Shown here piece by piece: positions 6,389 to 23,494 of a DNA stretch of 64,000 bases. The stretch spans positions 62,001 through 126,000 of the forward strand of contig JACCFC020000009.1 in the NCBI GenBank assembly GCA_020830965.2, given 5' to 3'. Origin of the DNA: Neisseriaceae bacterium TC5R-5. Its GTDB lineage: Bacteria; Pseudomonadota; Gammaproteobacteria; Burkholderiales; Chromobacteriaceae. Below the pieces are notes generated by a model, which saw only the letters and a program-made list of their open reading frames with translations, did not search any database and had not been told where the DNA came from. Position numbers and translations under genes: made by a program. Position 1 is the stretch's first letter, and every line of letters starts with the position of its first letter.

Positions 6389-7303
6389 CTAGTTTGCTGA
6401 TAGCACCAAGCGCTGCCATGCTTGCCCGTCCACGGCCAACACATGCCCATCGATAAATACCGGCCGCGTCAGCCCGGTCAATACCTGGCCGGGCGGCATT
6501 TCCCAGGCGGTGCGTATGCCGCGCTCCCAAGCGTGGCGCATGCTGTCACCCCAGCGCACCTGGCGCGCCATATTCATGGCCAGATCATCGGCAATCTGTG
6601 CCGCAGTGAACAATACGCGCGCCCGGCTGCTGCTCAGATAGAGCAAGCGCGGTGCCTGTAACACGATGTGTTGCATGGCCTGACGCAGTTGTTCGGCAGC
6701 AGCTTGCAGCAAGGGGCAATGCGAAGGAACGCTCATCGCCAGACGATGGCAGGCCTGCGCACCGGCGGCGTGGGCGGCCGTGTTCAAGCGGGCTAGTGCG
6801 CCTTGTTCTCCGGCAATAACGAATTGGGTATCGCTGTTCAGATTGGCCAGATACAGCGGGGCAGCTGGCTGATGCAGCTCCAGCAGTAGCGCTTCCAGCT
6901 GTGGCTGACGCAGCCCCTGTATGGCCAGCATGCCGTAACCGCTGGGAAAGGCCGCCTGCATCAGTTCGCCGCGCAAAGCCACCAGTCGCAGCGCAGCGGC
7001 AAAATCCACAACGCCAGCCACTACCGCCGCTGGCCAGGCGCCAATCGAGAAACCGGCCACCATCGTTGCTGGCACACCAGCACTCAACAATAGCCGGGCC
7101 ATCGCGACACCGGCAATCAGCAGGCACAGCTGTACTGCTCGTGTGCTGTGTAGCGCCTGTTCGCTATCCAGCTCCAAAACCGGCTGCTGCAGCACCTCAC
7201 TGGCTTGGGCCAGCGTCTCGCTAATCAGCGGGTGCTCCGGCAGGGTGTGCAACATCCCGGCGCGTTGCGCGCCCTGCCCGGGAAAGGTCAACAATAAGCT
7301 CAT
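6389..7303 (-). CDS. mdcH: Malonate decarboxylase, malonyl-CoA:ACP transacylase MdcH
   Basis: A 304-residue FabD-like acyltransferase that starts the decarboxylase cycle by loading a malonyl group from malonyl-CoA onto the MdcC carrier protein. The N-terminal LLTFPGQGAQRAGML is the family hallmark. The nucleophile Ser86 lies in GFSIGAW, and the catalytic His lies in the SVPSHCPLL segment at about 200. It is the last gene of the leftward mdcE-madLM-MFS-amidase-mdcG-mdcH unit, 7 bases after mdcG, with AGGGG ahead of its ATG. The mdc context separates it from housekeeping FabD. Confidence 0.9.
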   Translation of the reverse strand: MSLLLTFPGQGAQRAGMLHTLPEHPLISETLAQASEVLQQPVLELDSEQALHSTRAVQLCLLIAGVAMARLLLSAGVPATMVAGFSIGAWPAAVVAGVVDFAAALRLVALRGELMQAAFPSGYGMLAIQGLRQPQLEALLLELHQPAAPLYLANLNSDTQFVIAGEQGALARLNTAAHAAGAQACHRLAMSVPSHCPLLQAAAEQLRQAMQHIVLQAPRLLYLSSSRARVLFTAAQIADDLAMNMARQVRWGDSMRHAWERGIRTAWEMPPGQVLTGLTRPVFIDGHVLAVDGQAWQRLVLSAN

Positions 7304-7310
7304 TTCACCC

Positions 7311-7931
7311 CTATTGCTGTTGCCAGGGGTCAGCCAGCAGCAGCGGCCCCTGTGCTGTTTTCAATAAGACTCGACCCGGTGCCGCCAGCCATTCACGCAG
7401 AGCAAAGCCACCACGACCGGTATCGATCTGTACGTCTAGGCGCACCGGGCTGTCAGCCAGACACTGCTGCAAACAGCGTTTCTGCTGCTCATCTGGCGGC
7501 GCAGTCAGGCGAATCAACACATCCAGATCACTGCTGGCGCGTACTACCGGCAGGCCACTGGCTAGCGCAAAGCCGACACTACCGGTCGGCCCCCACTGCA
7601 AGCCGGCAGCATTCAGGCGCGGCGCCAGTTGTGCTAAGGCCTGTATCGCGAGAGAGGTCGCTGGCCAACGTCGCCAGGGCTGACTGGCAGCGAGTTGTTC
7701 CGGGCAGATGATTGCTGTCAGCGCACGGCAATCCACCCAGGCCGCCTGGCGCTGCCCGCGCTGCCAGCCACGCAGGCCCACCGGCAGCAAGCCGTCCTGT
7801 GTCGGCGCACGGCGCAGCACCAGCCAGCGCGCTAGGGGTGAATATGGCCGCCACCAGTCGGGCAGGCCGCCGGCGCAGTGCAGCGCAGCACCATCGGCCA
7901 GGCCTAACAAATCATGCGCGTTTACTATCAC
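7311..7931 (-). CDS. mdcG: Phosphoribosyl-dephospho-CoA transferase MdcG
   Basis: A 206-residue nucleotidyltransferase-like protein. It attaches the 2'-(5''-triphosphoribosyl)-3'-dephospho-CoA prosthetic group, made by MdcB, to the serine of MdcC. The family features seen are PVGLRGWQRGQRQAAWV (about 50-66) and the metal-binding SSDLDVLIRL (about 132-141). The start is a GTG that directly follows the TAA of the upstream amidase with no gap, so its translation is probably coupled to that gene. MdcG is essential for holo-carrier formation in the characterised systems. Confidence 0.87.
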   Translation of the reverse strand: MIVNAHDLLGLADGAALHCAGGLPDWWRPYSPLARWLVLRRAPTQDGLLPVGLRGWQRGQRQAAWVDCRALTAIICPEQLAASQPWRRWPATSLAIQALAQLAPRLNAAGLQWGPTGSVGFALASGLPVVRASSDLDVLIRLTAPPDEQQKRCLQQCLADSPVRLDVQIDTGRGGFALREWLAAPGRVLLKTAQGPLLLADPWQQQ

Positions 7932-9386
7932 TTACCCGGCCAGCGCCAAGTCAGGTGGTCGCCGCACTACCCAACGGGTGAGCAGATCATAGGCATGGGC
8001 CAGTTGTAACACGGCCATATCACCACGCGGCTTACCGATAATCTGCATCCCCATCGGCAAACCGGCAGCATTAAAGCCTACTGGCACACTGATCACCGGC
8101 AAACCGGCCATTGTCGCCGCCAATACCACTTCCATCCAGCGGTGGTAGCTGCTCATGGTCTTGCCGGCAATCTGCTGTGGCCAGTGCTGCTCCAGCGCGA
8201 ACGGGAATACCTGTGCGCTCGGCAGCAGTAGATAGTCATAGCGTGCAAACAGGCGCAGCATTTCCCGATACCAGTCGCTGCGGGTTTGCGATGCCTGGTA
8301 GATATCCAAGGCCGATAGGGCCAGACCACCTTCTATCTCCCATTGTATTTCCGGTTTCAGCAGTGACCGTTGTGCCGGCTGACGATACGCCGCGTGTAAT
8401 TGACCGGCCAGCAGCCATTGCCGCAGGGTTTGCCAGCTCGACCATAGCCGTGCCATCTCAAAATCCGGCTGCGCCGCCTCCACCACCGCCCCCAGCTCGC
8501 TAAATGTCGACAAAGCCTGCTCACATAAGGTGAGCACACCCGCTTCGGTTGGCAAGTAACCGGCGTAATCGCCCAACCAGCCTAGGCGCACGCCGCGTAG
8601 CTCGCGTTGCAGCGGCTGCTGCAAATCTGGTAGATCAAACGATAGCGGCGCACGCGCATCGTAGCCCGCCTGAGTACGCAATAACGCCAGAATATCCGGT
8701 ACCGAGCGCCCCATCGGGCCCTCAGTAGCCAGTTGCTGACAATACAGTTCGGGCAATGGCCCCAAGGCTACCGCGCCGGTGGAGGGTCGAAAGCCGAACA
8801 CATTATTGAAAGCGGCCGGATTACGCAAAGAGCCCATCATATCGCTGCCATCGGCCACCGGCTGCATATGCAGCGCCAGCGCTACTGCCGCGCCGCCACT
8901 GCTGCCACCGGCGCACAGTGTCGGAACATAAGCGTTAGCGGTGGCACCAAACACCGGGTTATAGGTTTGCGAGCCGGCGCCAAACTCGGGGGTATTACTC
9001 TTGCCGATAATGATGGCGCCGGCTTTCTTCAGGCGCGCTACCGCCAGCGCGTCGTGGGCTGGCCGATAATCGGCAAATAGCGGCGAGCCCATGGAGGTGA
9101 TAATGCCCGCCGTGGCTGCCAAATCCTTCACCGCCTGCGGAAAACCATGCATCCAACCGCCATCCTCGCCGCGCGCCAATTGCTGGTCACACTGCTGCGC
9201 CTGCTGCAGTAATAGCTCCACCGGCTGCAAGGACACCAGCGCATTCACCTGCGGATTACAGCGCTCAATCTGCGCGAGATAAGCCTGCATCACCTCGACA
9301 CACGACCAGTGCCGTGCATGAATCGCCGCCGATAGCTCTAAAGCCCCTAAGCCGACAATCTGTTTGCTGCTTGCTGCTGATAGCAT
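7932..9386 (-). CDS. Amidase-signature hydrolase embedded in the malonate operon
   Basis: A 484-residue amidase-signature enzyme. The catalytic Ser-cisSer-Lys set is visible: Lys87 in AVKDLAA, Ser162/163 in AGGSSGGAA, and nucleophile Ser186 in GSDMMGSLRNPA. It hydrolyses an amide bond, but the substrate cannot be read from sequence. It is separated by one base from the MFS gene before it and by none from mdcG after it, and GGGGGA precedes its ATG. Known malonamidase E2 has this fold, so malonamate or another malonyl amide yielding malonate is the leading guess. A general amidase that has been captured by the operon is the alternative. Confidence 0.82.
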   Translation of the reverse strand: MLSAASSKQIVGLGALELSAAIHARHWSCVEVMQAYLAQIERCNPQVNALVSLQPVELLLQQAQQCDQQLARGEDGGWMHGFPQAVKDLAATAGIITSMGSPLFADYRPAHDALAVARLKKAGAIIIGKSNTPEFGAGSQTYNPVFGATANAYVPTLCAGGSSGGAAVALALHMQPVADGSDMMGSLRNPAAFNNVFGFRPSTGAVALGPLPELYCQQLATEGPMGRSVPDILALLRTQAGYDARAPLSFDLPDLQQPLQRELRGVRLGWLGDYAGYLPTEAGVLTLCEQALSTFSELGAVVEAAQPDFEMARLWSSWQTLRQWLLAGQLHAAYRQPAQRSLLKPEIQWEIEGGLALSALDIYQASQTRSDWYREMLRLFARYDYLLLPSAQVFPFALEQHWPQQIAGKTMSSYHRWMEVVLAATMAGLPVISVPVGFNAAGLPMGMQIIGKPRGDMAVLQLAHAYDLLTRWVVRRPPDLALAG

Positions 9387-9387
9387 T

Positions 9388-10704
9388 TTATTCCCCCTTT
9401 TCCAGAACGAGCCTCGACGGCGCCCGCGAGCGCACCGGCGTGGATTCTTCGCGCAAACACCAGCAGGCGATCACACCCAAGCCCACACACAGCATCAGAT
9501 AAAAAGCCGGCGCCAGTGAAGAAGCCGTGGTCTGGCTTAGCCACAACACAATCAAGGGCGCAAAGCCGCCAAACAGCATCACGCCCAGATTGTAAGAAAT
9601 CGACATAGCGGTAGAGCGCACCCGGGTGGAGAACTGCTCGGCAAAGATGGCAGGCAGCGGGCCGGCAGCCATGCCCTGCAAAGCACACAAAATCAGTTGC
9701 ACCACCAGAAAGCGCTCAATACTGGGTGCGCTGCTCAACCACCAGAACAACGGGTACACCAGCAACAGCAAGCTGCCCAACGAGTACAGCACAATGCTGC
9801 GACGACTGACATAGTCGGACAACCAACCAGACAAAGGGGTAATCACCGTCAGCAAGGACACCGCCGCAATCTGCACACTGAAAGTTTGCTCCAAGGGCAG
9901 CGAAAACTGGCGGCTGGCATAACCCGGCATATTCACCAGTACCACATAAAACAAGGCGGTGCCCGGCACAATCAGCGCCGCCGTCAGCAGCATGCCGCGC
10001 CAATGCGCGCGCAAGTCCTGACCCATACCCTGCTTGGGCTGGCCTTGTTTCACGGCGACAAACTCATCGGTTTCATGCATATAGCGCCGCACCCACATTC
10101 CCACCGGGCCAATCAGCAGGCCTATTGCAAATGGCAAGCGCCAGGCCCAGCTCTCCAATTGCTCAACGGTAAAGCTATAAGTCACCAGCGCCCCCATCAC
10201 CGAGCCCCCCAGCACCGCAGCATACTGCCCAAAAAACTGCCAGGAGCCATAGAAGCCACGCCGTCCCGGCGGCGCACTTTCCACCAGAAACGCCGTCGAG
10301 CTGGCAAACTCACCGCCGCTGGAAAAGCCCTGCAGCAAACGTGCCAGCAGCATGATGGCCGGTGCCGCCACCCCGATCACGGCATAAGGCGGGGCCAGCG
10401 TAATCATCAGCACCGCCAGCGTCATCAAGCCCATGATGAGCTGCAAGGCAGCCTTACGGCCCTTACGGTCCGCATACAGTCCCAACAGCACCCCACCGAT
10501 CGGCCGCATCACGAAACCGGCACCAAAGGTAGCCGTAGTCAGCAGCAAAGACACATAGCCATCGCCATGCGCCGGGAAAAACAGCTTGGCAATCACACCG
10601 GTCATAAAACCGTACACGATAAAGTCGTACCACTCCAAAGCATTACCGATGGTGGCCGCTACCACCTGACGGGTACGGGAGGGCATTGCGACACGCTGAT
10701 TCAT
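9388..10704 (-). CDS. MFS transporter, MHS (proline/betaine/citrate-like) family
   Basis: A 438-residue inner-membrane carrier with about 12 hydrophobic segments. The opening ATIGNALEWYDFIVYGF and the later FSSGGEFASSTAFLVESAPPGRRGFYGSWQ are hallmarks of the metabolite:H+ symporter subfamily. AGGAG lies 7 bases from the ATG. It lies between madM and the amidase in the same direction, with one base to the amidase, so it probably imports the amidase substrate or a related carboxylate. A close relative is encoded at 14863-16143. Confidence 0.85.
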   Translation of the reverse strand: MNQRVAMPSRTRQVVAATIGNALEWYDFIVYGFMTGVIAKLFFPAHGDGYVSLLLTTATFGAGFVMRPIGGVLLGLYADRKGRKAALQLIMGLMTLAVLMITLAPPYAVIGVAAPAIMLLARLLQGFSSGGEFASSTAFLVESAPPGRRGFYGSWQFFGQYAAVLGGSVMGALVTYSFTVEQLESWAWRLPFAIGLLIGPVGMWVRRYMHETDEFVAVKQGQPKQGMGQDLRAHWRGMLLTAALIVPGTALFYVVLVNMPGYASRQFSLPLEQTFSVQIAAVSLLTVITPLSGWLSDYVSRRSIVLYSLGSLLLLVYPLFWWLSSAPSIERFLVVQLILCALQGMAAGPLPAIFAEQFSTRVRSTAMSISYNLGVMLFGGFAPLIVLWLSQTTASSLAPAFYLMLCVGLGVIACWCLREESTPVRSRAPSRLVLEKGE

Positions 10705-10740: not shown

Positions 10741-11505
10741 TCAGGCTACTAAGGCACGCGTCGCCAGAAACAATACCGACGGCGCCAGCAGACAGCCCAG
10801 ACCGGTATAAAAGGTTGCCGTCATCGCCCCATACGGCACCAGCTTGGGGTCGGTAGCAGCCAAACCACCGCATACCCCACTGGTCGTCCCCATCAGGCCG
10901 CCAAAAATCATCGCCGTGCGCGGATTGTTCAGGCCGATATAGGGGGCAGCAAATGGCGTGGCTACCATCACCAGAATCGACTTGATCAAACCTGCCGCAA
11001 TACTCAAGGCCACCACATCCGAAGAGGCACCAATCGCGGCACCAGTCACCGGGCCGACAATATAGGTCACCGCCCCGGCGCCTATGGTGGTCATGCTCAC
11101 CGCATCGTCATAGCCAAAAGCTACCGCCACCAAGGCCCCTACCACAAAGGACACCACCACCCCCAACAGCAGCGCAATACCGCCACTCAGCCCGGCCTGA
11201 CGGATCTCCTTCATCTCCACCCCGAACGCGGTAGCGGTAATGGCAAAATCGCGCAGCATCGCGCCCCCCAGTAAGCCAATGCCCGCCAATAAAGGCACAT
11301 CGGCCACGCCCTTGCTGCCGCCCGTCCATTTGCCACACACATAGGCCAGCACCAAACCGAGCAGGATAGCCAGCGCTGAGCCATGAATACGCCCGGCGGT
11401 CAGCCGCGCCGACAGACGATAGGACACAAACAGCGTCAGACCAATCAGCGCAAACGCGGTCAACAGGCCATTCTTGACGACGACTTCATCCAGTAATGTC
11501 AGCAT
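10741..11505 (-). CDS. madM: Malonate transporter subunit MadM
   Basis: A 254-residue very hydrophobic protein with about eight membrane segments. It matches MadM, the larger subunit of the two-component sodium-dependent malonate carrier known from Malonomonas and present in many mdc loci. Characteristic stretches are MLRDFAITATAFGVEMKEI and TTIGAGAVTYIVGPVTGAAIG. It follows madL by two bases, with GGGAG ahead of the ATG. MadL and MadM are required together for malonate uptake in characterised systems. Confidence 0.9.
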   Translation of the reverse strand: MLTLLDEVVVKNGLLTAFALIGLTLFVSYRLSARLTAGRIHGSALAILLGLVLAYVCGKWTGGSKGVADVPLLAGIGLLGGAMLRDFAITATAFGVEMKEIRQAGLSGGIALLLGVVVSFVVGALVAVAFGYDDAVSMTTIGAGAVTYIVGPVTGAAIGASSDVVALSIAAGLIKSILVMVATPFAAPYIGLNNPRTAMIFGGLMGTTSGVCGGLAATDPKLVPYGAMTATFYTGLGCLLAPSVLFLATRALVA

Positions 11506-11507: not shown

Positions 11508-11888
11508 TCAGGCTCCCTTCATGACAATGGTCGGCGCACGGCCCAACCTATCCAGCACGGGAATCAGCGCACCACACACCAGCACAGCCAGCACCCCGGC
11601 CAATACTGCCGCCGGCCCGCCTTTAACGGCAGCCACCACATTCTGCTGTGCCGCCATCGCCACCACGATGGGAATATAAATAGCACTCCAAAAGCTGATA
11701 CCCTGCTCGGTGATAACCGGCAAAGCACCACGTCGGCGTAGCCAGTCGCTGACCAACATCAGCAGCAGCATCGCAAAACCCACTCCGCCCACATTGGCTT
11801 TTACCCCAATCAACACCCCCAGGGCTTCACCCAATAACAAACCAAGCAACACACAGGCGGCTAATACCGCCGTTCCATAAATCACCAT
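11508..11888 (-). CDS. madL: Malonate transporter subunit MadL
   Basis: A 126-residue membrane protein with about four hydrophobic segments, the small partner of MadM. Segments such as VLLGLLLGEALGVLIGVKAN and GGVGFAMLLLMLVSDWL fit the family. AAGGAG lies in front of the ATG. It is the first mad gene after mdcE, from which it is separated by about 190 bases that hold a copy of the dispersed repeat. Confidence 0.9.
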   Translation of the reverse strand: MVIYGTAVLAACVLLGLLLGEALGVLIGVKANVGGVGFAMLLLMLVSDWLRRRGALPVITEQGISFWSAIYIPIVVAMAAQQNVVAAVKGGPAAVLAGVLAVLVCGALIPVLDRLGRAPTIVMKGA

Positions 11889-12079: not shown

Positions 12080-12889
12080 TCAGCCTGCCTCCGCCCTCCA
12101 TTGCTCGCGCAAGCGCGCCCTAACCTGCTGCGCTGCCTGCGATACCCCAGAACCACGCCGCGTTGCCACCGGCTGCGCCCGCACTTCTTGTAAAGCGGCC
12201 TGCAAAGCCTGTTGCACCCGCTGCACATCCGCCGCGTCAGGAGCCGTCGCCGAGCTGACTGACAATAAGCGCCATAACAAACCTAGTTCGGCATAGGCGC
12301 GGATATCGTAGGCCATTGGCAAGATACTGGCCGCCAGCGTTTCCAGTTGCTCCAGTGAACGCATAGTCACCCGCGCCGCTGCCGCCTTACCCATCGCCTG
12401 CGTCATCACCCCGGCCTCATCCAGCGCCAATAAACGATGCGCCTGATAACCATGCGCCAAAAACGCACCCGACATCGCCTGTCCCACCAAGAGACCCAGC
12501 ACCGGATGTCCGGCCAGGCGCGCGCTGGCATAGGCGTCCACAGCGGCCGCCAGTGCCAGGTGAATACCATACGCCTCCTCGCGGCGCCCATACGCCTGGC
12601 TGGGAACATCAATCAGCGCCACCAGCGCCCGTTTATGCTCACGATCAGCATCTGCCGTGATGGCATCCTGCACCGCTTGCGCCAGGTTCCAGCCCTGCTC
12701 CAGCCCCACCTCGCCATGACGCGCGCGAACAAAGCGTTGCGCCGCATCCGGCACCACCGCCAGATAGCGCGCCGGGTAGGCACCCAACACCCCATCCGCT
12801 ACCACAATCGCCGCGCCATAGTGCTGCCAGTCTTGCGGACACAGTGCGTGCAACCAGCGCTCTGCTCTGTTTTCAGCTATCTGACTCAT
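12080..12889 (-). CDS. mdcE: Malonate decarboxylase gamma subunit MdcE
   Basis: A 269-residue crotonase-fold subunit. With MdcD it forms the malonyl-S-ACP decarboxylase part of the enzyme. Typical stretches are YGAAIVVADGVLGAYPARYLAVVPD, HKRALVALIDVPSQAYGRREEAYGIH, and GQAMSGAFLAHGYQAHRLLAL. The ATG at 12889 was preferred over one at 12904 because GGGAGG lies only four bases ahead of it. In usual mdc operons mdcE directly follows mdcD. Here the two are about 4.7 kb apart, with an M20 hydrolase, an MFS carrier and a divergent permease between them, so a second promoter must exist at about 12890-13010. Confidence 0.9.
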   Translation of the reverse strand: MSQIAENRAERWLHALCPQDWQHYGAAIVVADGVLGAYPARYLAVVPDAAQRFVRARHGEVGLEQGWNLAQAVQDAITADADREHKRALVALIDVPSQAYGRREEAYGIHLALAAAVDAYASARLAGHPVLGLLVGQAMSGAFLAHGYQAHRLLALDEAGVMTQAMGKAAAARVTMRSLEQLETLAASILPMAYDIRAYAELGLLWRLLSVSSATAPDAADVQRVQQALQAALQEVRAQPVATRRGSGVSQAAQQVRARLREQWRAEAG

Positions 12890-13151
12890 CCAACCCTCCC
12901 GCATGAAATGAGAAACATTGATTATTAAAATTTTGAATAAATCAAAGTAAACAATTCAAATAAATGCTTGTGCGATGCGATCAACGCATGCCAATATTTA
13001 TCTGCAATAGTGCAATAAAACAGACCACAAGCCTTCATTGTGGCGAAAAAAAATGTTTGCCAGGCAGAAACGCATTGCTCTTACCCCCTAGGTAACTGGC
13101 TGAGCTTCATGTCGCTTTCTGCCTATTCAATAACTATTCAGGAGAAACCTT
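12890..13151. promoter_or_regulatory. AT-rich divergent promoter region between mdcE and the APC permease
   Basis: This stretch of about 260 bases separates two genes that are read away from each other, so it should hold promoters in both directions. The part nearest mdcE is very AT-rich. It contains TTGATT at about 12918 facing AATCAA at about 12937 and, further on, ATGCG-ATCAA-CGCAT. AGGAG sits ahead of the permease ATG. No exact promoter is assigned. Confidence 0.4.
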
Positions 13152-14862: not shown

Positions 14863-16143
14863 CTAACGATGTTGCCGTGCCGCCACATACACCGCACTCA
14901 GACTGATGATGCTCAGCACAATCAGGTAATAACTTGGAGCCAGATCACTACCGGTTTTCTGGATCAGCAAGGTACAGATCATCGGGGCAAAGCCACCAAA
15001 TACCGTCACCGCCACGTTGTAACTGAGTGACATGCCCGTGGCGCGAGTGGAGGCTGGAAACAGATCAGCCATCATCGATGGCAGCGCGGCGAAGTACACC
15101 GACTTCAACACTGCCAGCCAGATCACAAACAGTAGTAAATAATTGGCAGTAGGATGCTGTACCAGCAGATAAAAACCGGGATAGACCGAAACCAATAACA
15201 GCAGCAAAGCGCCTTTCATCAAGGGGATGCGCCCCACTTTTTCTGCCCACAAACCCGCCAGCGGCGTCAGCACCGCCAGAATAATGCCGCCTACCAGTGT
15301 GGATAGATACGCCCCGCTACCGGCCAATTTCAGGGTTTTAGTTGCATAGGTGGGGATGTAATTGAGCATGTAATTGACGGCAGTGGAGATCACCATCAGG
15401 CCCGTGGCGGTAAAAAACCAGGCTTTTTGGTGACGGGCAATTTCCGCCACCGGGGAGGCCAGCACTGGCTCTGCATTAAAGCTGGGCGACTCATGCAGAT
15501 GACGGCGGATATACAAACCTACCGGCCCGATCAGCAAGCCAAAAAAGAAGGGAATACGCCAGCCCCAATCCTGAATCTGCTGCTCCGGCATCCACAGCGT
15601 TAGCCCGACGCCAAAAGCCGAGGCCATCACCGTGCTGGCGCCCTGCGTGGCAAACTGCCAGCTGGCGATAAAGGCTTTGCGCTCCGGAAAGTGCTCCACT
15701 AGGAAGGCCGTCGAGCTGCCGAATTCCCCCCCTGCCGAGAAGCCCTGAATCAGCCGCGCCAGCAGCAGCAAAATCGGTGCGGCCAAACCAATACTGGCGT
15801 AAGTCGGTAAAGTGGCAATCATCAGGCTGCCCACCATCATCAAGGCGATAGAGAGTAATAAAGAAGCCTTGCGCCCGGCCTTATCGGCATAAGCACCCAG
15901 TACAATCGCCCCTAGCGGACGAATCAGAAAAGACACGCCAAAAGTGCCAAAGGTCAGTAATAGTGAGCTGGTTTCATCGCCGACCGGGAAAAAAGCCCGC
16001 GCAATATAGCTGGCAAAAAAGGCATAGACAATGATGTCAAACCACTCCAGCGCATTACCAATACAAGTGGAAAACAGGGTTTTGTACAGACTGGGCTTGG
16101 GCGTTGTCGCCGGGTCTGCCGTTGCTAAGTTTGCTGGGTTCAT
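14863..16143 (-). CDS. MFS transporter, MHS family (second copy in the locus)
   Basis: A 426-residue 12-segment carrier with the opening FSTCIGNALEWFDIIVYAFFASYIARAFFP and the internal FSAGGEFGSSTAFLVEHFPERKAFIASWQ, as in metabolite:H+ symporters. It is clearly related to the protein at 9388-10704 but not identical. AGGAG lies ahead of the ATG. It follows the M20 hydrolase by about 30 bases and is the last gene of the mdcABCD unit, so it probably brings in the substrate of that hydrolase. Confidence 0.85.
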   Translation of the reverse strand: MNPANLATADPATTPKPSLYKTLFSTCIGNALEWFDIIVYAFFASYIARAFFPVGDETSSLLLTFGTFGVSFLIRPLGAIVLGAYADKAGRKASLLLSIALMMVGSLMIATLPTYASIGLAAPILLLLARLIQGFSAGGEFGSSTAFLVEHFPERKAFIASWQFATQGASTVMASAFGVGLTLWMPEQQIQDWGWRIPFFFGLLIGPVGLYIRRHLHESPSFNAEPVLASPVAEIARHQKAWFFTATGLMVISTAVNYMLNYIPTYATKTLKLAGSGAYLSTLVGGIILAVLTPLAGLWAEKVGRIPLMKGALLLLLVSVYPGFYLLVQHPTANYLLLFVIWLAVLKSVYFAALPSMMADLFPASTRATGMSLSYNVAVTVFGGFAPMICTLLIQKTGSDLAPSYYLIVLSIISLSAVYVAARQHR

Positions 16144-16173: not shown

Positions 16174-17598
16174 TTATTTGGCTAAGGGGCAGCGATGGCG
16201 CCGTTGCTGGGCCAGCAGCGCCTGACCTTGCTCACCCCAATCCCACCATAGCTGCGTCATGATATGCAGCCCTTCGCTGGCAATGGTTTTGAGCATATGT
16301 TCGTTAACGCCATGCTGACCGCAAGCCGGGTAGGAGTGCGGTATCCACAAGGTAGGCAAGCCAAGAATATCGGCAAACACTTCATTGGGCAGCGAGCCGC
16401 CAATATTGGGTAATAGCGCCGGTTTTTTGCCGGTGGCCGCCTGCATGATGGCCAGCGCCCAGTTCACCAGCGGGCTGGTGGGGTCGAAACGGGTGGCCGG
16501 GGTGCAGCCAAGTATTGCAAGCTGCACCTGATTAAAGCCGTGAGCATCCAGATGGGCACGCAGATGCTGCTGGATAGCATGCCAGTCGGTACCGACGACA
16601 AAACGTAGCTGGCAGATCGCTTGTGCGCTCGGCGGAATAGCATTAACCGGCTGTTGCGGATTGCCCGCGCTATAACTCAGCACTTCCAGCGTGTTCCAGG
16701 CAAACAGCCGCTCAGCCGGGCTAAGCCCCGCCTCACCCCAGTTAACATCAATCGCCGGGTCACCAGGCTGGCCACCGGGCTGAATATCACTGAGTATGGT
16801 GCGTAGCGCTGGCGTTAAGGCTGGCGCTTGTAAAGCGGAGACCTGCATCTGGCCTTGGGCATTCACCAGACAGGCAATCGCATTAGCCAGTTGAGTAGCC
16901 GGATTGCTCAGCAGCCCGCCCCAGTTGCCGGAGTGGTAAGCCTGCTCACGCGCCGACAGACTGAGACGGAAATTACAGCAGCCACGTGAACCTAAAAACA
17001 GCGTGGGCCGCTCAGCATTCAGGCGCGGGCCATCGGAGGCGATAAAGATATCGGCGGCCAGCCGCTGCTGATATTGTCGACAGAGTTCGGCCAGACCGGG
17101 CGAGCTGATTTCCTCGCCCATCTCGAACAGGATTTTGCAGTTAAAACCCAAACGGCCACCGCGTGCCTGATGAATCAGCTGCAAAGCCGCCAGATTGATA
17201 CTGTGCTGACCCTTATTGTCAGCACTACCACGCCCATACCAGCGCTCGCCCTCCTCCACCAGTTGCCACGGGTGTAAGCCTTCGCGCCAGTTTACGGCAT
17301 TACCGAAAACCACATCGCCATGGCCATAGCTCAACACGGTGGGAAGCTGCGGGTCTTCCAGATATTCGGCCAGTAAGAACGGTGGACAGCCGCTGTGCGG
17401 GTTATCCAGTAATTCGCAGCGGAAACCCAGCGCCTGTAAGGCCGGGCTGATTTCCTGCAGCAGATAGTCGGTCAGCAAAGTGACCGCTTGCGCTTGCTGA
17501 CTTTCCGTGGCCCAGCCAATACGCCGCGCTAAAGTGCGCTGCAATTCGCCGCTATCCAGAAAGGCTTGCACCTGAGTAGTGAGTACGGCTGCGCCCAT
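16174..17598 (-). CDS. M20-family metallohydrolase (amidohydrolase/peptidase)
   Basis: A 474-residue member of the M20/ArgE/DapE/ACY1 family, which cleaves N-acyl amino acids and peptides with a two-zinc site. Metal-binding stretches are LSYGHGDVVFG, WYGRGSADNKGQ (Asp bridging both metals), LFEMGEEISSPG (catalytic Glu pair), ASDGPRL, and the C-terminal IPHSYPACGQHGVNEH with the last His ligand. AAGGAG precedes the ATG. It follows mdcD by about 20 bases in the same direction. An N-malonyl amino acid is an attractive but unproven substrate; a dipeptidase is the alternative. Confidence 0.83.
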   Translation of the reverse strand: MGAAVLTTQVQAFLDSGELQRTLARRIGWATESQQAQAVTLLTDYLLQEISPALQALGFRCELLDNPHSGCPPFLLAEYLEDPQLPTVLSYGHGDVVFGNAVNWREGLHPWQLVEEGERWYGRGSADNKGQHSINLAALQLIHQARGGRLGFNCKILFEMGEEISSPGLAELCRQYQQRLAADIFIASDGPRLNAERPTLFLGSRGCCNFRLSLSAREQAYHSGNWGGLLSNPATQLANAIACLVNAQGQMQVSALQAPALTPALRTILSDIQPGGQPGDPAIDVNWGEAGLSPAERLFAWNTLEVLSYSAGNPQQPVNAIPPSAQAICQLRFVVGTDWHAIQQHLRAHLDAHGFNQVQLAILGCTPATRFDPTSPLVNWALAIMQAATGKKPALLPNIGGSLPNEVFADILGLPTLWIPHSYPACGQHGVNEHMLKTIASEGLHIMTQLWWDWGEQGQALLAQQRRHRCPLAK

Positions 17599-17619: not shown

Positions 17620-18453
17620 TTATTCGCCAGCGAACACTCGCGCCCGTGCCGCATCGGCCTGCTCCACGGCATCGATTGCCGCCAGTCGCTCACGGTAGTA
17701 AGCAATTTTCTGGCTGCGATGCTCAGTTGGTACGCCTTGTTGCAACCAGCGCTGCAGCTGCTGACGAATCTCGGCGACATCGTCAGCACAACAGGCATCC
17801 ACCAAGCCGCAGGCATAGCGCTGCTCCCCACCGATCAGGCTCCAGATTAGCGGGCGGTCACTGGCGTTGTATTCCGCCACCCCCGCTTCCTGCTCAATCA
17901 CCGCCGGGCCGTTCAAACCCAGGCGCGCCTCGCGGGTGAGCAGCAGATAGCTGCACAAACCAGCAGCAATACTCATGCCACCAAAGCAGCCCACCGGCCC
18001 GGCACTGATGCCGATAACCGGCTGATAACGGCGTAAATCGACAATGGCCGCATGGATATCCGCAATCGCCGCCAGGCCAAGATTAGCCTCCTGCAAACGT
18101 ACGCCGCCGGTTTCGAGCAAGAGCAATGCCGCCGTCGGCCGCCCCTGACGGTTGTCTTCGGCAGCCAGCTCCAGCGCGCCAGCCAGCTTGGCGCCGGAAA
18201 CATCGCCCAGGCTACCACCCTGAAACGCGCCTTCAATCGCCGCCACCACGACGGTCAGTCCTGCCACGCGGCCTTGAGCGATGACCATGCCATCATCAGC
18301 CTGGCTGACCAGGCCTTGCTGCTCCAGCCAGGGCGAGCGCAAGCGCTGAAAGGGGTCGAGTAATTCGCGAAAACTGCCGGCATCCAGCAAGCTTTGTGCA
18401 CGCTGCCGCGCATTACCTTCGCTAAAACTGTGTCGTTGTGCCACATTGCTCAT
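17620..18453 (-). CDS. mdcD: Malonate decarboxylase beta subunit MdcD
   Basis: A 277-residue carboxyltransferase-fold subunit that decarboxylates malonyl-S-ACP together with MdcE. Stretches such as GLVSQADDGMVIAQGRVAGLTVVVAAIEGAFQGGSLG, LLLLETGGVRLQEANLGL and GISAGPVGCFGGMSIAAGLC are typical. Its ATG overlaps the mdcC stop by four bases (ATGA), so the two are translationally coupled. The usual partner mdcE is not next to it here. Confidence 0.92.
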   Translation of the reverse strand: MSNVAQRHSFSEGNARQRAQSLLDAGSFRELLDPFQRLRSPWLEQQGLVSQADDGMVIAQGRVAGLTVVVAAIEGAFQGGSLGDVSGAKLAGALELAAEDNRQGRPTAALLLLETGGVRLQEANLGLAAIADIHAAIVDLRRYQPVIGISAGPVGCFGGMSIAAGLCSYLLLTREARLGLNGPAVIEQEAGVAEYNASDRPLIWSLIGGEQRYACGLVDACCADDVAEIRQQLQRWLQQGVPTEHRSQKIAYYRERLAAIDAVEQADAARARVFAGE

Positions 18454-18761
18454 CGGCTATTCTCCGCGTCCTGACTGGCTTCCAGCGCCTGCTCCAGGCG
18501 CAGCCGAATCACACCCGGGCTGGCACCAAAATCGTTGATTTCCAGTTGCACCGCTGGCCAGAGCCTGGCGGTAAACACCCGCTCCAACGTTGCTCGCCAG
18601 ATGGTTTCGGTACCGCTCAAAGCGGTGTTGACCCGCACCTGAATGCAGTCGGTGCTATCTGGCTCCAGCAGCACTTCCAGATCCCCCGAGCCGACCACGC
18701 CAACAATCGCTCGCTGTGGGGTGCGGCCATAGGCCGGATAGTTGAATTGATAGTGTTCCAT
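18450..18761 (-). CDS. mdcC: Malonate decarboxylase acyl carrier protein MdcC
   Basis: A 103-residue carrier protein (delta subunit). Ser25 in VVGSGDLEVLL corresponds to the serine that bears the phosphoribosyl-dephospho-CoA arm in the Klebsiella protein. The malonyl or acetyl group is carried on this arm during the cycle. It lies between mdcB (15 bases upstream) and mdcD (4-base overlap), and GAGG precedes the ATG. Confidence 0.92.
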   Translation of the reverse strand: MEHYQFNYPAYGRTPQRAIVGVVGSGDLEVLLEPDSTDCIQVRVNTALSGTETIWRATLERVFTARLWPAVQLEINDFGASPGVIRLRLEQALEASQDAENSR

Positions 18762-18776: not shown

Positions 18777-19646
18777 TCACGACGCGGTTGGCAAACTATC
18801 CAACAATAAAGTAGCAGCCAGTAAGTCGGCCGCCCCACCCGGTGATAAACGCCTCGCCAGTAATTGTCTATCCAGTTGTTGCAATAACACGCGACCAGTT
18901 GCACTGGCACTGCCGCCAGCCTGCAACACCGCCGCCGCGCCCTGCTGTGCCAGTTGCAAACCCGCCACACCGCCACGCGCCAGCAGGCAGGTATCGTCCA
19001 ATTGCGCCATGATGGCGAGCAAGGCATCCAGCTGAGCACAAGCTTCACCGGCACCGGCCTGCCGTGTGTGACGAAGTGTCGGTAAGCCTGCCTGCATCAC
19101 TTGTGGGAACCCCGCCATGGCCTGCGCGCGCGCGCCACCGACACCATATTGCTGACAGGCCCGGGCACCGGGATGCGCCGGCTGTTGCTCAAGGCCGCTA
19201 TCTGGCAGACGCGCCAGTTGAGCCGCTCTTTGTGTCAGCTCGGCCACACCGGCCTCTGGCCAGTGCGCCGCCGCTGTCAGCAGCAGGCCCAGCGCCCAGA
19301 TGGCACCGCGATGAGTATTGATCCCACCCGTTACCGCCAGCATGGCCGCTTCGGCATCACGACCATGCCGGCCAATCGCACGGCGTAAGCTGGCCAGATC
19401 ATCCAGTTCCTGTGCCGCTTGTGCCATCGCCAGCAGGCCGGGCTGCAAAGCGCGGGCAGAGCGGCACAGCAGCCACCAATCCATATCCTGATGCGCCCCA
19501 CCGCCACGCTGGTCTACCAGCCCCGGCTTGGGGCTGAGGCTGGCCTCGCTAATCAGCGCCCGCACTGCCGCCGTCGCCAGCGCAGCCGGGCTGCGATTGC
19601 TGACAGCGGTAGCCTCCGCCTGCCATGATCTGAGCAATGCCCCCAT
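18777..19646 (-). CDS. mdcB: Triphosphoribosyl-dephospho-CoA synthase MdcB
   Basis: A 289-residue protein of the CitG/MdcB family, which makes the prosthetic group precursor from ATP and dephospho-CoA. SPKPGLVDQRGGGAHQDMDW (about 36-55) and GINTHRGAIWALGLL (about 107-121) are the signature regions. The ATG at 19646 overlaps the mdcA stop (TAATG), and AGGAG lies six bases ahead, so coupled translation is likely. A TTG two codons earlier is possible but weaker. Confidence 0.9.
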   Translation of the reverse strand: MGALLRSWQAEATAVSNRSPAALATAAVRALISEASLSPKPGLVDQRGGGAHQDMDWWLLCRSARALQPGLLAMAQAAQELDDLASLRRAIGRHGRDAEAAMLAVTGGINTHRGAIWALGLLLTAAAHWPEAGVAELTQRAAQLARLPDSGLEQQPAHPGARACQQYGVGGARAQAMAGFPQVMQAGLPTLRHTRQAGAGEACAQLDALLAIMAQLDDTCLLARGGVAGLQLAQQGAAAVLQAGGSASATGRVLLQQLDRQLLARRLSPGGAADLLAATLLLDSLPTAS

Positions 19647-21313
19647 TACCAACTCCTGAACTTAGCCGGCGGCTGATACAAGCCGCCCGACCATTCCACC
19701 AGATCGGCCATGCTTTTCGCTGCCAGCCATTCGCGGCTGGCGTCCTGACGGCGTATCCCCAGGTCTTCCGGCAAGGCAATCAAGCCCTGGCGGCGCAGGC
19801 TTTCTGTTTGCTTAGGATCATGACGCAAGCCTATCGCGGTGACACCGGCTACCGCAGCAATCATTGCCTGGCGCTGTTGCAGCGATTCGGCCAGATATAA
19901 ATAGGCAATGCCTTCTTCGGTCAATAAATGAGTAACATCGTCGCCATAAATCATGATTGGCGCTAAAGCCATGCCGCTTTGCCGTGCCACGTCCAGTGCA
20001 TCCAGTCGCTCGACGAAAGTGGGTTTCATCCCCTCCTGAAAGGTTTCCACCATCTGCACCACCAGCTTACGGCCACGCTCCAACAAGGGCTCGGCACTAT
20101 GGCTTGGCCGCAGATCCAGCCAGGCCGGGCTAGCATGGCGACGACCGCGCGGGTCATGGCCCATATTCGGCGCCCCACCGAAACCGGCCAGACGGCCACG
20201 GGTAACAGTGGAAGAATGGCCATCGCCATCCACCTGCAAGGTGGCACCGATAAACAAATCCACCGCATACTGCCCGGCCAGTTGACAGAACAGGCGATTG
20301 GAGCGCAAGGAGCCATCGCGGCCGGTAAAGAAGATGTCCGAACGCGCCGCCACATAGTTTTCCATGCCCAGCTCGCTACCGAAGCAATGCACGCTTTCCA
20401 CCCAGCCACTTTCGATCGCTGGAATCAGCGTAGGGTGCGGGTTTAATGCCCAATGCCGACAGATCTTGCCCTTCAGCCCCAGTTTTTCGCCATAGGTCGG
20501 CAGGATCAGCTCAATGGCCGCGGTATTAAAACCAATGCCGTGATTCAGCGACTGCACATTGTGGCGCTGATAAATACCACGTATCGCCATCATCGCCATC
20601 AGCACATGCAGCGGCTTGATATGACGCGGATCGCGGGTGAATAGGGGTTCGATATGAAAGGGGCGGTCGGCTTCAACGACAAAATCCACCCAGGAGGCAG
20701 GGATGTCTACCCGTGGTAGCTCACTGATATCGTCTACCAGTTGATTTACCTGCACGATGACAATGCCGTCGCTAAACGCAGTGGGCTCCACTAAGGCCGG
20801 GGTGTCTTCGGTACTGGGGCCGGTATAGATATTGCCAGCACGGTCAGCCATAAAACCCGCCACCAACGCTATATTAGGAATTAAATCGAGCACCAGCCGC
20901 GAATAGAGTTCGATATAGGTGTGAATCGCACCAATCTCCAGCAGACCGTCCTCTAAAAGCTGGCTGATACGCAGGCTTTGCGGCCCGGCAAAGGAGAAGT
21001 CCAGCTTACGGGCAATGCCGCGTTCGAAAATATCCAGATGCTCGCTACGACTGACGCTGGGCAGAATCATGTGCAGATCATGCACGATGGCGGGGTCCAA
21101 CTGCGCCAGTGCGCGCGACAGAAAATCAGCCTGCTTCTGATTATTACCTTCCAGCACCACCTTATCGCCAGGCTGTAATAGTAGCTGTAAGGCCTCGACG
21201 ATGGCGTGACTGGGCAAGACTCTGCCCACCGCTAACGATGCCAGTTTGGCGAGTCGCTGTTGTTTGTTGTGGCGTCTATGCTGCCAGGGCGCTGCTTGTG
21301 CTGCCGCCTGCAT
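19646..21313 (-). CDS. mdcA: Malonate decarboxylase alpha subunit MdcA (acetyl-ACP:malonate ACP transferase)
   Basis: A 555-residue subunit that exchanges the acetyl group on the MdcC carrier for malonate, releasing acetate. Family stretches are KLASLAVGRVLPSHAIVEALQLLLQPGDKVVLEG, RDIFFTGRDGSLRSNR-like text at about 330-345, and GGAPNMGHDPRGRRHASPAW. The ATG is preceded by GGAGAG. It is the first gene of the mdcABCD-M20-MFS unit, and a dyad about 80-100 bases upstream is a candidate MdcR site. Length matches known MdcA proteins. Confidence 0.93.
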   Translation of the reverse strand: MQAAAQAAPWQHRRHNKQQRLAKLASLAVGRVLPSHAIVEALQLLLQPGDKVVLEGNNQKQADFLSRALAQLDPAIVHDLHMILPSVSRSEHLDIFERGIARKLDFSFAGPQSLRISQLLEDGLLEIGAIHTYIELYSRLVLDLIPNIALVAGFMADRAGNIYTGPSTEDTPALVEPTAFSDGIVIVQVNQLVDDISELPRVDIPASWVDFVVEADRPFHIEPLFTRDPRHIKPLHVLMAMMAIRGIYQRHNVQSLNHGIGFNTAAIELILPTYGEKLGLKGKICRHWALNPHPTLIPAIESGWVESVHCFGSELGMENYVAARSDIFFTGRDGSLRSNRLFCQLAGQYAVDLFIGATLQVDGDGHSSTVTRGRLAGFGGAPNMGHDPRGRRHASPAWLDLRPSHSAEPLLERGRKLVVQMVETFQEGMKPTFVERLDALDVARQSGMALAPIMIYGDDVTHLLTEEGIAYLYLAESLQQRQAMIAAVAGVTAIGLRHDPKQTESLRRQGLIALPEDLGIRRQDASREWLAAKSMADLVEWSGGLYQPPAKFRSW

Positions 21314-21439: not shown

Positions 21440-21511
21440 GAGCCGCTAACAAAACCGCGAAGAGCCCCTGAGCCAAGGCGCGCTGACGCAGACAGTACCA
21501 GCAGTACCAAG
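21440..21511 (+). repeat. Dispersed inverted-repeat element, copy 4, truncated
   Basis: It starts GAGCCGCTAACAAAACC and keeps GAAGAGCCCCTGAGCCAAGG, GACGCAGACAGTACC and AGTACC in the order of copy 1. The right half, with GGAGGCG and the closing inverted repeat, is missing. It lies between DUF817 and mdcA. Confidence 0.7.
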
Positions 21512-21590
21512 CACAGTAAGACCTTGAAAACGTGGTTTGATATCATAAAGTGTCACAGATACACCTCAAAGCTGTGTGTCATAGCGGATA

Positions 21591-22520
21591 TTATCGTTTT
21601 TCACATGGCGGTCGATAGGCTTGCGGCCGGTTCACCGCCGCCACCATGATATAGCTGATGATCATCAATAAAAACCACGAACCCAGCTTGGCGAACGACA
21701 CCATCGTCCAGCCTTTCATTTGATTGGGGTAAAGCCAGGCACCGGTGAAGGTACCGATATTTTCAGCAAGCCAGATAAAGATCGCCACCAGGAAAAACCC
21801 AAGCAACAAAGGCATGTGGCGGTAAACCTGCCAGACCCGAAAATAAATCCAGCTTCGACCAAAACTCAGCAGCAGCACCACAAACAAGCCCCAGCGCATA
21901 TCCGGCATATAATGATGGGAGAAGAAATTAATGTAGATCGCACCACAAATCACATAGGCCAGCCAAAGCGGCGGATGATGCGTAAAACGGAAATCCATCA
22001 GGCGCCAGACTCGTGCGATATAGCTACCGATTGCCGCATACATAAAGCCGGTGAACAGTGGCACACCGCCGATGCGAAACCAGTTCGCTTCGGGATATAC
22101 CCAAGAACCAACCGCGGTTTTGAAAATCTCCATCACCGTGCCGACCACATGAAACAACAGAATCACCTTCGCCTCATCCAAGGTTTCCATGCGTAAGGCT
22201 AAGAGAGTTAACTGAATAAGCACCGCTGCGAGAAACAGAAAATCATAGCGAGCAAGCCAGCTACCTGACGGATACCACAGATAGGTACCCACCAATAAAG
22301 CCAGCATTAGCCCACCAAACAAACAGGCCCAGGCCTGCTTAACGCCAAAGCGGACAAACTCATACAAAAAAACGGCAAACTTTCCTCGCTGCGACGCATA
22401 GGCCCCCAGCCGGGCCGCACATTGTCGCCAATAAACTGGCGTGAAAACCGGGCTATTCGCTGCCGGTTCTGTCGAAACACTCATCGCTACCCCACCCCTA
22501 ATAATATGAATAACATGCAC
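21591..22520 (-). CDS. DUF817 integral membrane protein
   Basis: A protein of up to 309 residues with about nine hydrophobic segments and conserved polar or charged spots such as FLYEFVRFGVKQAWACLFG, LLFHVVGTVMEIFKTAVGSWVYPE and FIWLAENIGTFTGAWLYPNQ. It belongs to the DUF817 (YoaT-like) family of unknown function. A GTG at 22520 has AGGAG five bases ahead; an ATG at 22484 with GGGGTGGGG ahead is an alternative start. It lies between the divergent mdcR and mdcA, so it may be co-regulated with malonate use. No activity can be given. Confidence 0.78.
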   Translation of the reverse strand: MHVIHIIRGGVAMSVSTEPAANSPVFTPVYWRQCAARLGAYASQRGKFAVFLYEFVRFGVKQAWACLFGGLMLALLVGTYLWYPSGSWLARYDFLFLAAVLIQLTLLALRMETLDEAKVILLFHVVGTVMEIFKTAVGSWVYPEANWFRIGGVPLFTGFMYAAIGSYIARVWRLMDFRFTHHPPLWLAYVICGAIYINFFSHHYMPDMRWGLFVVLLLSFGRSWIYFRVWQVYRHMPLLLGFFLVAIFIWLAENIGTFTGAWLYPNQMKGWTMVSFAKLGSWFLLMIISYIMVAAVNRPQAYRPPCEKR

Positions 22521-22567
22521 TAAATCTCCTGTCGTATCATAGCTACCGGATCAAGCCGGAAACCGCC

Positions 22568-23494
22568 ATGCCCATCGATGACGACATTACCCTCAAAAAG
22601 CTGAGTGTGTTCCTCACCTTTATGCAGCAGGGCAGTATGGCACGCACTGCCGAACACTTGGGCCAGAGCACGGTGAGCGTACACCGCGCGCTGCATTCAC
22701 TGGAGCAAGCCTTGGGCTGCGCGTTGTTTAAGCGCGAAGGCCGACTGCTGACGCCACTGGCCACCGCCCGGCACTTTGCCGACAGCGCCGCCCAGGCGTT
22801 AACCCTGCTGGAGAACGGCATTCAGCAAATGCGCGAGTTGGCCGGCTTTGCCGGTACTCAACTGAAAGTGGGAGCCTTATATTCGCTGACAGCCGGGGTG
22901 ATTCCACAGATTCTGATGGGCCTGAAAATCCGTCGACCCAGCATTGAAGTGGACCTGACGCTGGCGTCCAACCACGCTTTGCTGCAAGGGCTGCATGAAG
23001 GCCGCCTGGACGCCATTATCATCGCCAGCGCACAGGCCGACTATCCCGGCGCGCTGTCGGTCGCGATGTTTGAAGATGAAATCTGCTTTGCCGCCCCACT
23101 CGCTTCACCTTATCAACACCATACCGAGATTGACCTGGCCACGGTTAGCCAACTGCCGTTTGTCGCCTTGGACGAAGCCTTCGCCACCGGCCAGGACTTT
23201 AACCGCGCCTTTCACCAGCTCGGCTTGCATGCTGAAGTGGTAATGCGGGTGAACGACATTTTTTCACTCGCTAATCTTATCAGTGGCGGCATGGGCTATG
23301 CGCTCTTACCCAAGCGCGTCGCCCTGTTCAACCCGCAGATTCAGCTCATCCCGCTGGCGGCCCATTGCAAAACCTATCAGCACATCCGCCTCCTGCTCAA
23401 TAAAAGCCGCGAGCGCGACCCCAATCTGCTGGCACTGGCCGCAGAATGTCGTATGCAGGGCAAACAACGGAGGCAGGATCGGGTAGCTAATTAG
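22568..23494 (+). CDS. mdcR: LysR-type regulator MdcR
   Basis: A 308-residue LysR-type transcription factor. The N-terminal helix-turn-helix is at about 10-65 (LSVFLTFMQQGSMARTAEHLGQSTVSVHRALHSLEQALG). A periplasmic-binding-like effector domain follows, with GALYSLTAGVIPQIL and SGGMGYALLPKR. In Klebsiella and Acinetobacter MdcR activates the mdc operon with malonate as inducer. The gene is read away from DUF817 across 47 bases and converges with mpl, overlapping its end by four bases. The name rests on family likeness and location. Confidence 0.85.
   Translation: MPIDDDITLKKLSVFLTFMQQGSMARTAEHLGQSTVSVHRALHSLEQALGCALFKREGRLLTPLATARHFADSAAQALTLLENGIQQMRELAGFAGTQLKVGALYSLTAGVIPQILMGLKIRRPSIEVDLTLASNHALLQGLHEGRLDAIIIASAQADYPGALSVAMFEDEICFAAPLASPYQHHTEIDLATVSQLPFVALDEAFATGQDFNRAFHQLGLHAEVVMRVNDIFSLANLISGGMGYALLPKRVALFNPQIQLIPLAAHCKTYQHIRLLLNKSRERDPNLLALAAECRMQGKQRRQDRVAN

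Follow-up and report, generated by a model that had tools for sequence, protein, structure and literature searches.

Characterized malonate decarboxylase (mdc) operons handle free malonate. This is also the compound for which one account describes them (PMC5534430), and the Pseudomonas mdcABCDEGHLM operon given there combines decarboxylase genes, genes for modifying the acyl carrier protein (ACP), and the madLM (mdcLM) genes. All of these are also present in the stretch analyzed here, 64,000 nucleotides of Neisseriaceae bacterium TC5R-5 (contig JACCFC020000009.1, positions 62,001 to 126,000; hereafter, the window). Compared with the Pseudomonas operon, however, the window adds an M20-family metallohydrolase gene, an MFS carrier gene (MFS2), and a divergent APC-superfamily permease gene between mdcD and mdcE, and a further MFS carrier gene (MFS1) and an amidase gene between madM and mdcG. 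In our view, an operon for malonate catabolism has probably been extended here to the use of amide-bound malonate, and the amidase most likely frees malonate from malonyl amides. An mdc operon drawing on amide conjugates would show one source of environmental malonate.

An mdc operon with additional hydrolases and carriers

The open reading frames (ORFs) and profile scans of the locus gave the following genes:

7932..9386, minus strand: amidase-signature hydrolase, proposed malonyl-amide hydrolase (NF005686 [PRK07486], 756 bits, cut-off 465)
9388..10704, minus strand: MFS carrier 1 (MFS1), metabolite/H+ symporter type (TIGR00883, 348 bits, below the cut-off of 443)
16174..17598, minus strand: M20-family metallohydrolase, between mdcD and MFS2 (NF005478, 749 bits, cut-off 330; metal-site residues conserved)
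14863..16143, minus strand: MFS carrier 2 (MFS2), metabolite/H+ symporter type (TIGR00883, 371 bits, below the cut-off of 443)
19646..21313, minus strand: mdcA, malonate decarboxylase alpha subunit (PF16957, 974 bits)
18777..19652, minus strand: mdcB, triphosphoribosyl-dephospho-CoA synthase (PF01874, 240 bits)
18450..18761, minus strand: mdcC, acyl carrier protein subunit (PF06857, 81 bits; Ser25 in GSGD)
17620..18453, minus strand: mdcD, decarboxylase beta subunit (TIGR03133, above cut-off)
12080..12904, minus strand: mdcE, decarboxylase gamma subunit (TIGR03134, above cut-off)
7311..7931, minus strand: mdcG, holo-ACP synthase (NF002332 and TIGR03135, above cut-off)
6389..7303, minus strand: mdcH, epsilon subunit, malonyl transferase (TIGR03131, above cut-off)
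11508..11888, minus strand: madL, malonate transporter subunit (TIGR00807, above cut-off)
10741..11505, minus strand: madM, malonate transporter subunit (TIGR00808, above cut-off)
13152..14786, plus strand: APC-superfamily amino acid permease (PF13520; TIGR00909 below cut-off)
22568..23494, plus strand: LysR-type regulator, MdcR by position (PF00126/PF03466; a 62% identical relative lies beside mdcA in locus L136)
21591..22520, minus strand: DUF817 gene between mdcA and the LysR gene, perhaps an insertion (PF05675)

MdcA, MdcB, and MdcC were identified by Pfam alone, and MdcD, MdcE, MdcG, MdcH, MadL, and MadM also by NCBIfam equivalog cut-offs. Running down from position 21313, the minus strand carries mdcA, mdcB, mdcC, mdcD, the M20 gene, and MFS2; the plus-strand APC gene follows, splitting the minus-strand run in two, and beyond it come mdcE, madL, madM, MFS1, the amidase gene, mdcG, and mdcH. 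The locus thus holds MdcA, B, C, D, E, G, and H together with a malonate transporter and a LysR-type regulator. Adjacent mdcD and mdcE genes and a single direction of transcription, which are usual but not essential in mdc operons, are not seen here, as the M20, MFS2, and plus-strand APC genes intervene. MFS1 and MFS2, about 43% identical to each other, score best with models of metabolite/H+ symporters and of the tricarballylate symporter, each time below cut-off.

An earlier, sequence-only reading of this DNA had claimed a full mdc set (A, B, C, D, E, G, H) with madLM, which the ORFs, Pfam, and NCBIfam confirm. It had further placed an amidase between an MFS carrier and mdcG with spacers of 1 and 0 bases, and an M20 enzyme with an MFS carrier right after mdcD. 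The ORF coordinates agree on both counts: MFS1 ends at 9388 and the amidase starts at 9386, the amidase ends at 7932 and mdcG starts at 7931, and the mdcD-M20 and M20-MFS2 spacers are 21 and 30 bases. The mdcR that it named is present as a LysR gene, but the name comes from position only, the NCBIfam matches being to other regulators and all below cut-off.

The enlarged operon in a second species

Among 19 genomes of the genus, mdcA was found in two, and close relatives of the amidase and of the M20 enzyme only in the same two. In the sister operon (locus L136 of genome G001), the genes lie in one direction in the order mdcA-mdcB-mdcC-mdcD-M20-MFS2-mdcE-madL remnant-MFS1-amidase-mdcG-mdcH, and the APC and DUF817 genes are absent. 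At 11943-14364 of L136, madM is missing, madL is a fragment, and MFS2 is read in two frames; the absence of madM applies to this operon, the rest of G001 not having been searched for madLM. The amidase, M20, and MFS1 genes are open and full length, with products 64 to 73% identical to those of the window. The ratios of nonsynonymous to synonymous substitution rates (dN/dS) between the two species, at a dS near saturation, were 0.15 (amidase), 0.09 (M20), and 0.24 (MFS1); those of mdcA, mdcD, and mdcG ranged from 0.07 to 0.25. Given that the same additional genes, at 70 to 73% identity, occur in the mdc operon of a second species, with low dN/dS for the amidase and M20, we conclude that the enlarged gene order is not due to chance. 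The loss of madM and the remnant of madL in G001 further mean that an mdc operon without its madLM symporter retained a carrier and both hydrolases.

A conserved amidase-signature subfamily

The amidase belongs to NF005686 (PRK07486), a model named merely "amidase," and has the marks of the amidase-signature family, namely, a PF01425 score of 300 bits, over the cut-off, and residues K87, S162, and S186. We take these three residues to be the Lys/cis-Ser/Ser triad, a role assigned by their spacing; the Ser-cisSer-Lys set of the sequence-only reading is therefore found as invariant residues whose roles are presumed. K87, S162, S186, and R188 are the same in amidases from five groups of contexts (mdc, mat, ACC deaminase, Pseudomonas/Aquitalea, and Burkholderiales; 40 rows), and the subfamily may thus do similar chemistry throughout. 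The best fold match of the amidase's AlphaFold model is an aryl acylamidase (25 to 26% identical, TM 0.87 to 0.88), which would fit cleavage of an N-substituted amide without showing it. The source genome has one other PF01425 gene, with a better score for the family and with relatives throughout the genomes of the genus; we read it as GatA.

Amidase relatives beside genes of other malonate pathways

We examined the surroundings of amidase relatives in four sets. A set of named genomes, picked by amidase similarity alone, comprised the best 80 of 578 confirmed relatives. In the order, an amidase match at an E value of 1e-100 was present in 67 of 399 genomes, and the best 40 of 68 further places were fetched. 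In Halomonadaceae, 27 of 201 genomes had the amidase at 1e-130, including the seed loci L075 and L078, and all 27 loci were read to about 7 to 10 kb per side where the contig allowed. Finally, 46 plasmid records matched the amidase, and 19 were read.

Three of the best 80 named loci adjoin malonate genes. In Collimonas (L050), the order is amidase-madL-madM; in Halomonas organivorans (L075), it is MCD-MatB-madL-madM-amidase, where MCD is malonyl-CoA decarboxylase and MatB is malonyl-CoA synthetase; and in Bisbaumannia pacifica (L078), it is SCFA carrier-MCD-MatB-amidase-OprD, an arrangement found again in L181 (genome G827). The L078 MatB scores above the cut-off of the malonyl-CoA synthase model (822 bits against 558). 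Counting further Halomonadaceae, the amidase is malonate linked in 6 of the 27 loci, in four arrangements (L075; L078 and L181; L186; L184 and L185). L186 (G948) reads amidase-SCFA carrier-MCD-MatB, and the GntR-type regulator gene adjoining its amidase is the same as that in L184 and L185 (G971 and G805), where the order is amidase, regulator gene, TRAP carrier, MCD, and MatB, the regulator and carrier genes occupying the roughly 4 kb from amidase to MCD. Plasmid pMaD2 of Marinovum algicola (L252, 64-9047) carries, in one direction, MCD, an acyl-CoA synthetase with 68% identity to MatB, an amidase, a short-chain fatty acid (SCFA) carrier, and a PRK07486-type amidase. This run, which thus has two different amidases and also includes a gene annotated as glutamate/leucine dehydrogenase, looks like a plasmid pathway from amide to acetyl-CoA.

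The malonate-linked relatives elsewhere are 53 to 63% identical to the window amidase. For genomes of 4 to 5 Mb, we estimate that a randomly placed gene would be found 7 to 10 kb or less from any one malonate locus in far fewer than 1% of cases. On a tree of 106 amidases (thinned from 149 rows, mostly of Pseudomonas; Marinovum not included), the malonate label, carried by 9 rows, needs four changes, at least three of them forced by well-supported branches. The malonate linkage of the amidase recurs via different malonate pathways in Beta-, Gamma-, and Alphaproteobacteria. The earlier idea that the amidase feeds malonate to catabolism is, as a prediction, fairly well supported by these contexts outside mdc, with madLM or with MCD and MatB.

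Several loci were not counted as malonate linked: L062, L070, L074, and L146, with a MatB-like match of 29 to 32% alone; L227 and L267, with MatB-like matches of 35% and 29%; L220, with one MCD-like gene on the other strand; and L187, with an SCFA carrier only. Carriers and M20-type enzymes are common company for the amidase. An MFS1-like gene lies upstream in 56 of the best 80 named loci, joined in 50 by an M20D-type amidohydrolase (for the M20D [TIGR01891] and IclR calls, one representative each was profile-tested), and an M20D gene lies directly upstream in 4 of the 27 Halomonadaceae loci. M20-type enzymes are also near the amidase in Pseudomonas, some Halomonadaceae, Azoarcus, and Agrobacterium. 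In L182 (5898-9522; L183 is alike), M20D, amidase, and peptidase S58 genes are consecutive, and on a Variovorax paradoxus plasmid (L262, 4074-9781), the amidase is flanked by a transketolase-annotated gene pair and a penicillin acylase family gene.

ACC deaminase genes adjoining Halomonadaceae amidases

1-Aminocyclopropane-1-carboxylate (ACC) is the plant precursor of ethylene and is destroyed by ACC deaminase, whose gene, acdS, is often under the control of an Lrp/AsnC-type regulator. Of the 27 Halomonadaceae loci, 9 (L193, L195 to L198, and L200 to L203) have acdS directly upstream of the amidase gene on the same strand, and a KdgD gene flanks the amidase at its other end. Between the acdS stop and the nearest amidase start are 60 to 157 bases, and L200 has an Lrp/AsnC-type regulator gene at the far side of acdS. 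Five of the nine AcdS proteins scored 621 to 633 bits with TIGR01274 (cut-off 392), and each of the other four is 92 to 99% identical to one of those tested. The nine linked amidases belong to a single clade of 14 and are 70 to 94% identical to one another. In 11 loci, the fetched flanks hold a MatC-family carrier gene in opposite orientation (family tested on four); MatC proteins are dicarboxylate carriers, and their presence is no proof of malonate. A Halomonas plasmid acdS (L268) has no PRK07486-type amidase adjoining. The window shares the amidase subfamily with the acdS loci but differs from them in having no acdS. Across the loci read, the subfamily is linked to malonate genes (MCD/MatB, madLM, or mdc) and to acdS, although never to both in one locus.

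Malonate and ACC are joined by an amide bond in the plant compound N-malonyl-ACC (PMC5258695 and PMC4227472). Since the amidase subfamily is linked to the consumption of both halves, we regard the window amidase as most likely a malonyl-amide hydrolase. D-Methionine competes with ACC for a plant malonyltransferase (PMC10452086), and N-malonyl D-amino acids accordingly stand with N-malonyl-ACC and other N-malonyl amino acids as the leading candidate substrates, malonamate or malonamide being the main alternative. For N-malonyl-ACC itself, the link to acdS in a single Halomonadaceae clade is suggestive, as linkage alone. Hydrolysis of N-malonyl-ACC has been reported in plants, and the enzyme is called unknown in a 2014 review. 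That PRK07486-type amidases are bacterial hydrolases of N-malonyl-ACC (and of N-malonyl D-amino acids), and so provide the first gene for this activity, is a tentative idea that we hold to be possible rather than probable. If it is true, bacteria would tap the plant's store of ethylene precursor, with Mdc or MCD/MatB taking the malonate half and ACC deaminase the ACC half, and ethylene levels would be affected from an N-malonyl-ACC pool thought to be closed. Such bacteria would then be linked to the plant's stored form of this precursor. With a gene that lies beside malonate genes or beside acdS depending on the lineage, N-malonyl-ACC hydrolysis becomes directly testable.

The M20 hydrolase and the APC permease

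The M20 enzyme belongs to NF005478 (PRK07079), a model named "hypothetical protein." At least 95% of 43 rows share H93, D95, D127, E162, E163, D189, and H429; by alignment with CNDP-type chains, these residues presumably make up the metal site and include the catalytic Glu of an M20 dinuclear zinc hydrolase. Relatives occur in 48 of 399 genomes of the order (window included) and in 18 of 111 Halomonadaceae, and we read 42 loci, part of the matches. An MFS2-like gene is directly downstream of the M20 gene in 6 of the 42, and an ABC importer cluster with a solute-binding protein is near it in 16; representatives of this cluster have a family 5 solute-binding protein and an oligopeptide/dipeptide-type ATPase. 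In Halomonadaceae loci L229 to L238, PRK07079-type M20 genes follow oligopeptide-type ABC importer genes (profile-tested on L229). These neighbors suggest a peptide substrate for the family.

Of 25 amidase genomes, 15 also have the M20 enzyme, where 3.0 would be expected, and of 17 genera, 11 have it, where 2.9 would be; these figures were obtained at an amidase cut of about 50% identity chosen after the list was seen and by Fisher tests that ignore phylogeny save for the one genus-level repeat, with genome size and kinship not controlled. Most likely, the M20 enzyme would cleave a peptide or N-acyl bond in the same compounds or in related ones, which is the weak part of our model. The sequence-only reading had the M20 enzyme cleave malonyl amino acids, which is weakly supported: the 42 loci show MFS or peptide-ABC carriers rather than a clear malonate gene, although the enzyme does co-occur with the amidase. 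The same reading gave the APC permease the task of handling the freed amino acid, a claim that is not supported, as the gene is divergent and absent from the sister operon L136. We dropped it from the system.

Origin of the enlarged operon

A long MdcA match was present in 40 of the 399 genomes of the order, the window included. Loci were retrieved from 38 of the remaining 39 genomes, as well as from G001 and a fragment, leaving out G428, in which mdcA is split. Several of the 38 loci are cut by contig ends, and 6 show no mdcH; in the stretches read, none of the 38 had a close amidase or a close M20. In a sample of the class, mdcA occurred in 7 of 369 genomes, window included (loci not read). 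L112 and L118 have a distant amidase (36 to 37% identical), convergent just beyond mdcH, which was not counted as a further case because it scores below the NF005686 cut-off.

In Aquitalea, the MFS1-amidase pair lies apart from mdc, either on a different contig or at a distance of megabases, and in two Aquitalea genomes, the same is true of the M20-MFS2 pair. We take this as a sign that the two pairs entered the mdc operon in the lineage leading to this genus. A tree of M20 enzymes (41 of the 42 loci with the window and L136; L227 dropped out through ORF calling) joins the window and G001 firmly, and not with Aquitalea.

Proposed mechanism and alternatives

We propose that, once MFS1-amidase and M20-MFS2 had been brought together in the mdc operon of this genus, the symporters would import a small carboxylate amide, the amidase would split its malonyl amide bond by Ser-cisSer-Lys chemistry, and the Mdc enzyme would decarboxylate the malonate so freed. 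The substrates may be plant N-malonyl-ACC and N-malonyl (D-)amino acids, and the M20 enzyme might cut another amide or peptide bond in these or similar compounds. What we observe is the gene set with its order and conservation, and the linkage to genes for malonate use and ACC deaminase; the operon's history, the uptake, substrate, and reaction, and the part played by M20 are inferred from this.

A number of observations weigh against this proposal. No malonate gene is nearby in 77 of the best 80 named amidase loci or in 18 of the 19 plasmid loci read, and the outcome by which the sequence-only reading would be refuted, homologues elsewhere without linkage to mdc genes, applies to most homologues read: in 0 of the 40 order loci was a malonate gene beside the amidase, apart from one weak MatB-like match, and the malonate link reappears via other malonate pathways. 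Near the M20 relatives, a clear malonate gene was found in 0 of 42 loci, the nearest cases being an MCD-like gene on the other strand (L220) and a weak acyl-CoA synthetase match (L227). The changes of the malonate label on the amidase tree may be gains or losses, and the amidase trees, which group the window, G001, and Aquitalea, do not resolve the two mdc-linked amidases as sisters relative to those of Aquitalea. No ACC deaminase is present in the window (the rest of the source genome was not searched), and acdS is lacking at the same place in 5 of the 14 loci of its clade; the basal pair has it, and acdS was therefore probably ancestral in the clade and lost several times. Since all 14 have a KdgD gene nearby, the region is syntenic throughout, and the acdS link amounts to a single event. 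Inspection by eye shows a palindrome after acdS in some loci, which makes a shared acdS-amidase transcript uncertain. The AlphaFold model of the amidase has a mean pLDDT of 80 and active-site loops of low confidence, and we therefore read no substrate from it. Orthology with malonamidase E2 was rejected on distance: its E value is 9e-17, compared with 5e-51 for GatA, and it is among the weakest of 56 PDB matches; nor is it among the 50 listed fold matches of the model.

Malonamidase E2 belongs to the same superfamily and carries out the reaction of the main alternative (PMC8393822), in which the amidase hydrolyzes malonamate or malonamide to malonate and ammonia, with no amino acid conjugate involved. 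The malonate linkages fit this alternative equally, and Marinovum, with its two amidases and glutamate/leucine dehydrogenase gene, is equipped as a diamide route with ammonia assimilation might be. We nonetheless consider it a somewhat unlikely explanation, given that it accounts neither for the ACC deaminase gene beside the amidase in nine genomes nor for the recurrent M20-type enzymes, and that malonamidase E2 is distant. If, alternatively, the amidase and M20 enzyme were general amide and peptide scavengers that had landed in the mdc operon, malonate would not be their product. Most relatives indeed have no malonate genes nearby, many are accompanied by MFS, ABC, or TRAP carriers and M20 enzymes, and the 16 oligopeptide-type ABC clusters among the 42 M20 loci point the same way; yet the recurrence of malonate linkage via different pathways in three classes, and a sister operon that has both hydrolases without madM, make this unlikely in our view.

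Two further substrates seem much less probable. N-aryl malonamic acids, such as fungal products of benzoxazolinone detoxification, are made by Fusarium (PMC4726666), and the nearest predicted-fold match of the amidase is an aryl acylamidase. A 25% fold match says little on substrate, however; the named neighbors of the malonate-linked loci (part of all neighbors) include no aromatic-catabolism gene, and the acdS linkage would be left unexplained, so that we find this option improbable. Ureidomalonate from pyrimidine oxidation would also yield malonate, with the amidase in a ureidomalonase role. This we find hardly credible. A search for the barbiturate route through PF09663 (AtzD/TrzD-type ring-opening amidase) gave no match in the source genome, and none in the control genomes either. 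The earlier idea of a locus that cleaves malonyl conjugates and feeds the decarboxylase is thus supported in part, fairly well for the amidase, weakly for the M20 enzyme, and not for the permease.

Comparison with known systems

Our literature searches, which mostly did not cover subscription journals, found no related paper linking a malonate decarboxylase operon to an amidase and none joining ACC deaminase or malonyl-ACC with an amidase; nearest to the clusters of MCD, malonyl-CoA synthetase, and amidase was a fungal study (PMC4726666). In that study, the FDB clusters of Fusarium and Colletotrichum, which serve malonyl conjugation of 2-aminophenol, contain amidase genes, and that of Colletotrichum also a malonyl-CoA synthetase gene; these clusters differ from the window locus in that they make malonamic acids and have no bacterial malonate catabolism. 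Malonamidase E2 of rhizobia shares the amidase-signature superfamily and possibly the product, malonate, with the window amidase but is distant in sequence. The M20D-MFS-amidase-IclR loci of Pseudomonas encode amidases 63 to 67% and MFS1 proteins 51 to 60% identical to those of the window, whereas their flanks hold no malonate genes and their M20 is of another subfamily (TIGR01891, tested on L015). Operons of the matAB type, with MCD and malonyl-CoA synthetase, adjoin the same amidase subfamily in some Halomonadaceae and in Marinovum, although the window uses the Mdc enzyme rather than MCD and MatB. From the characterized mdc operons, finally, the window locus differs by its built-in transporter-hydrolase pairs.

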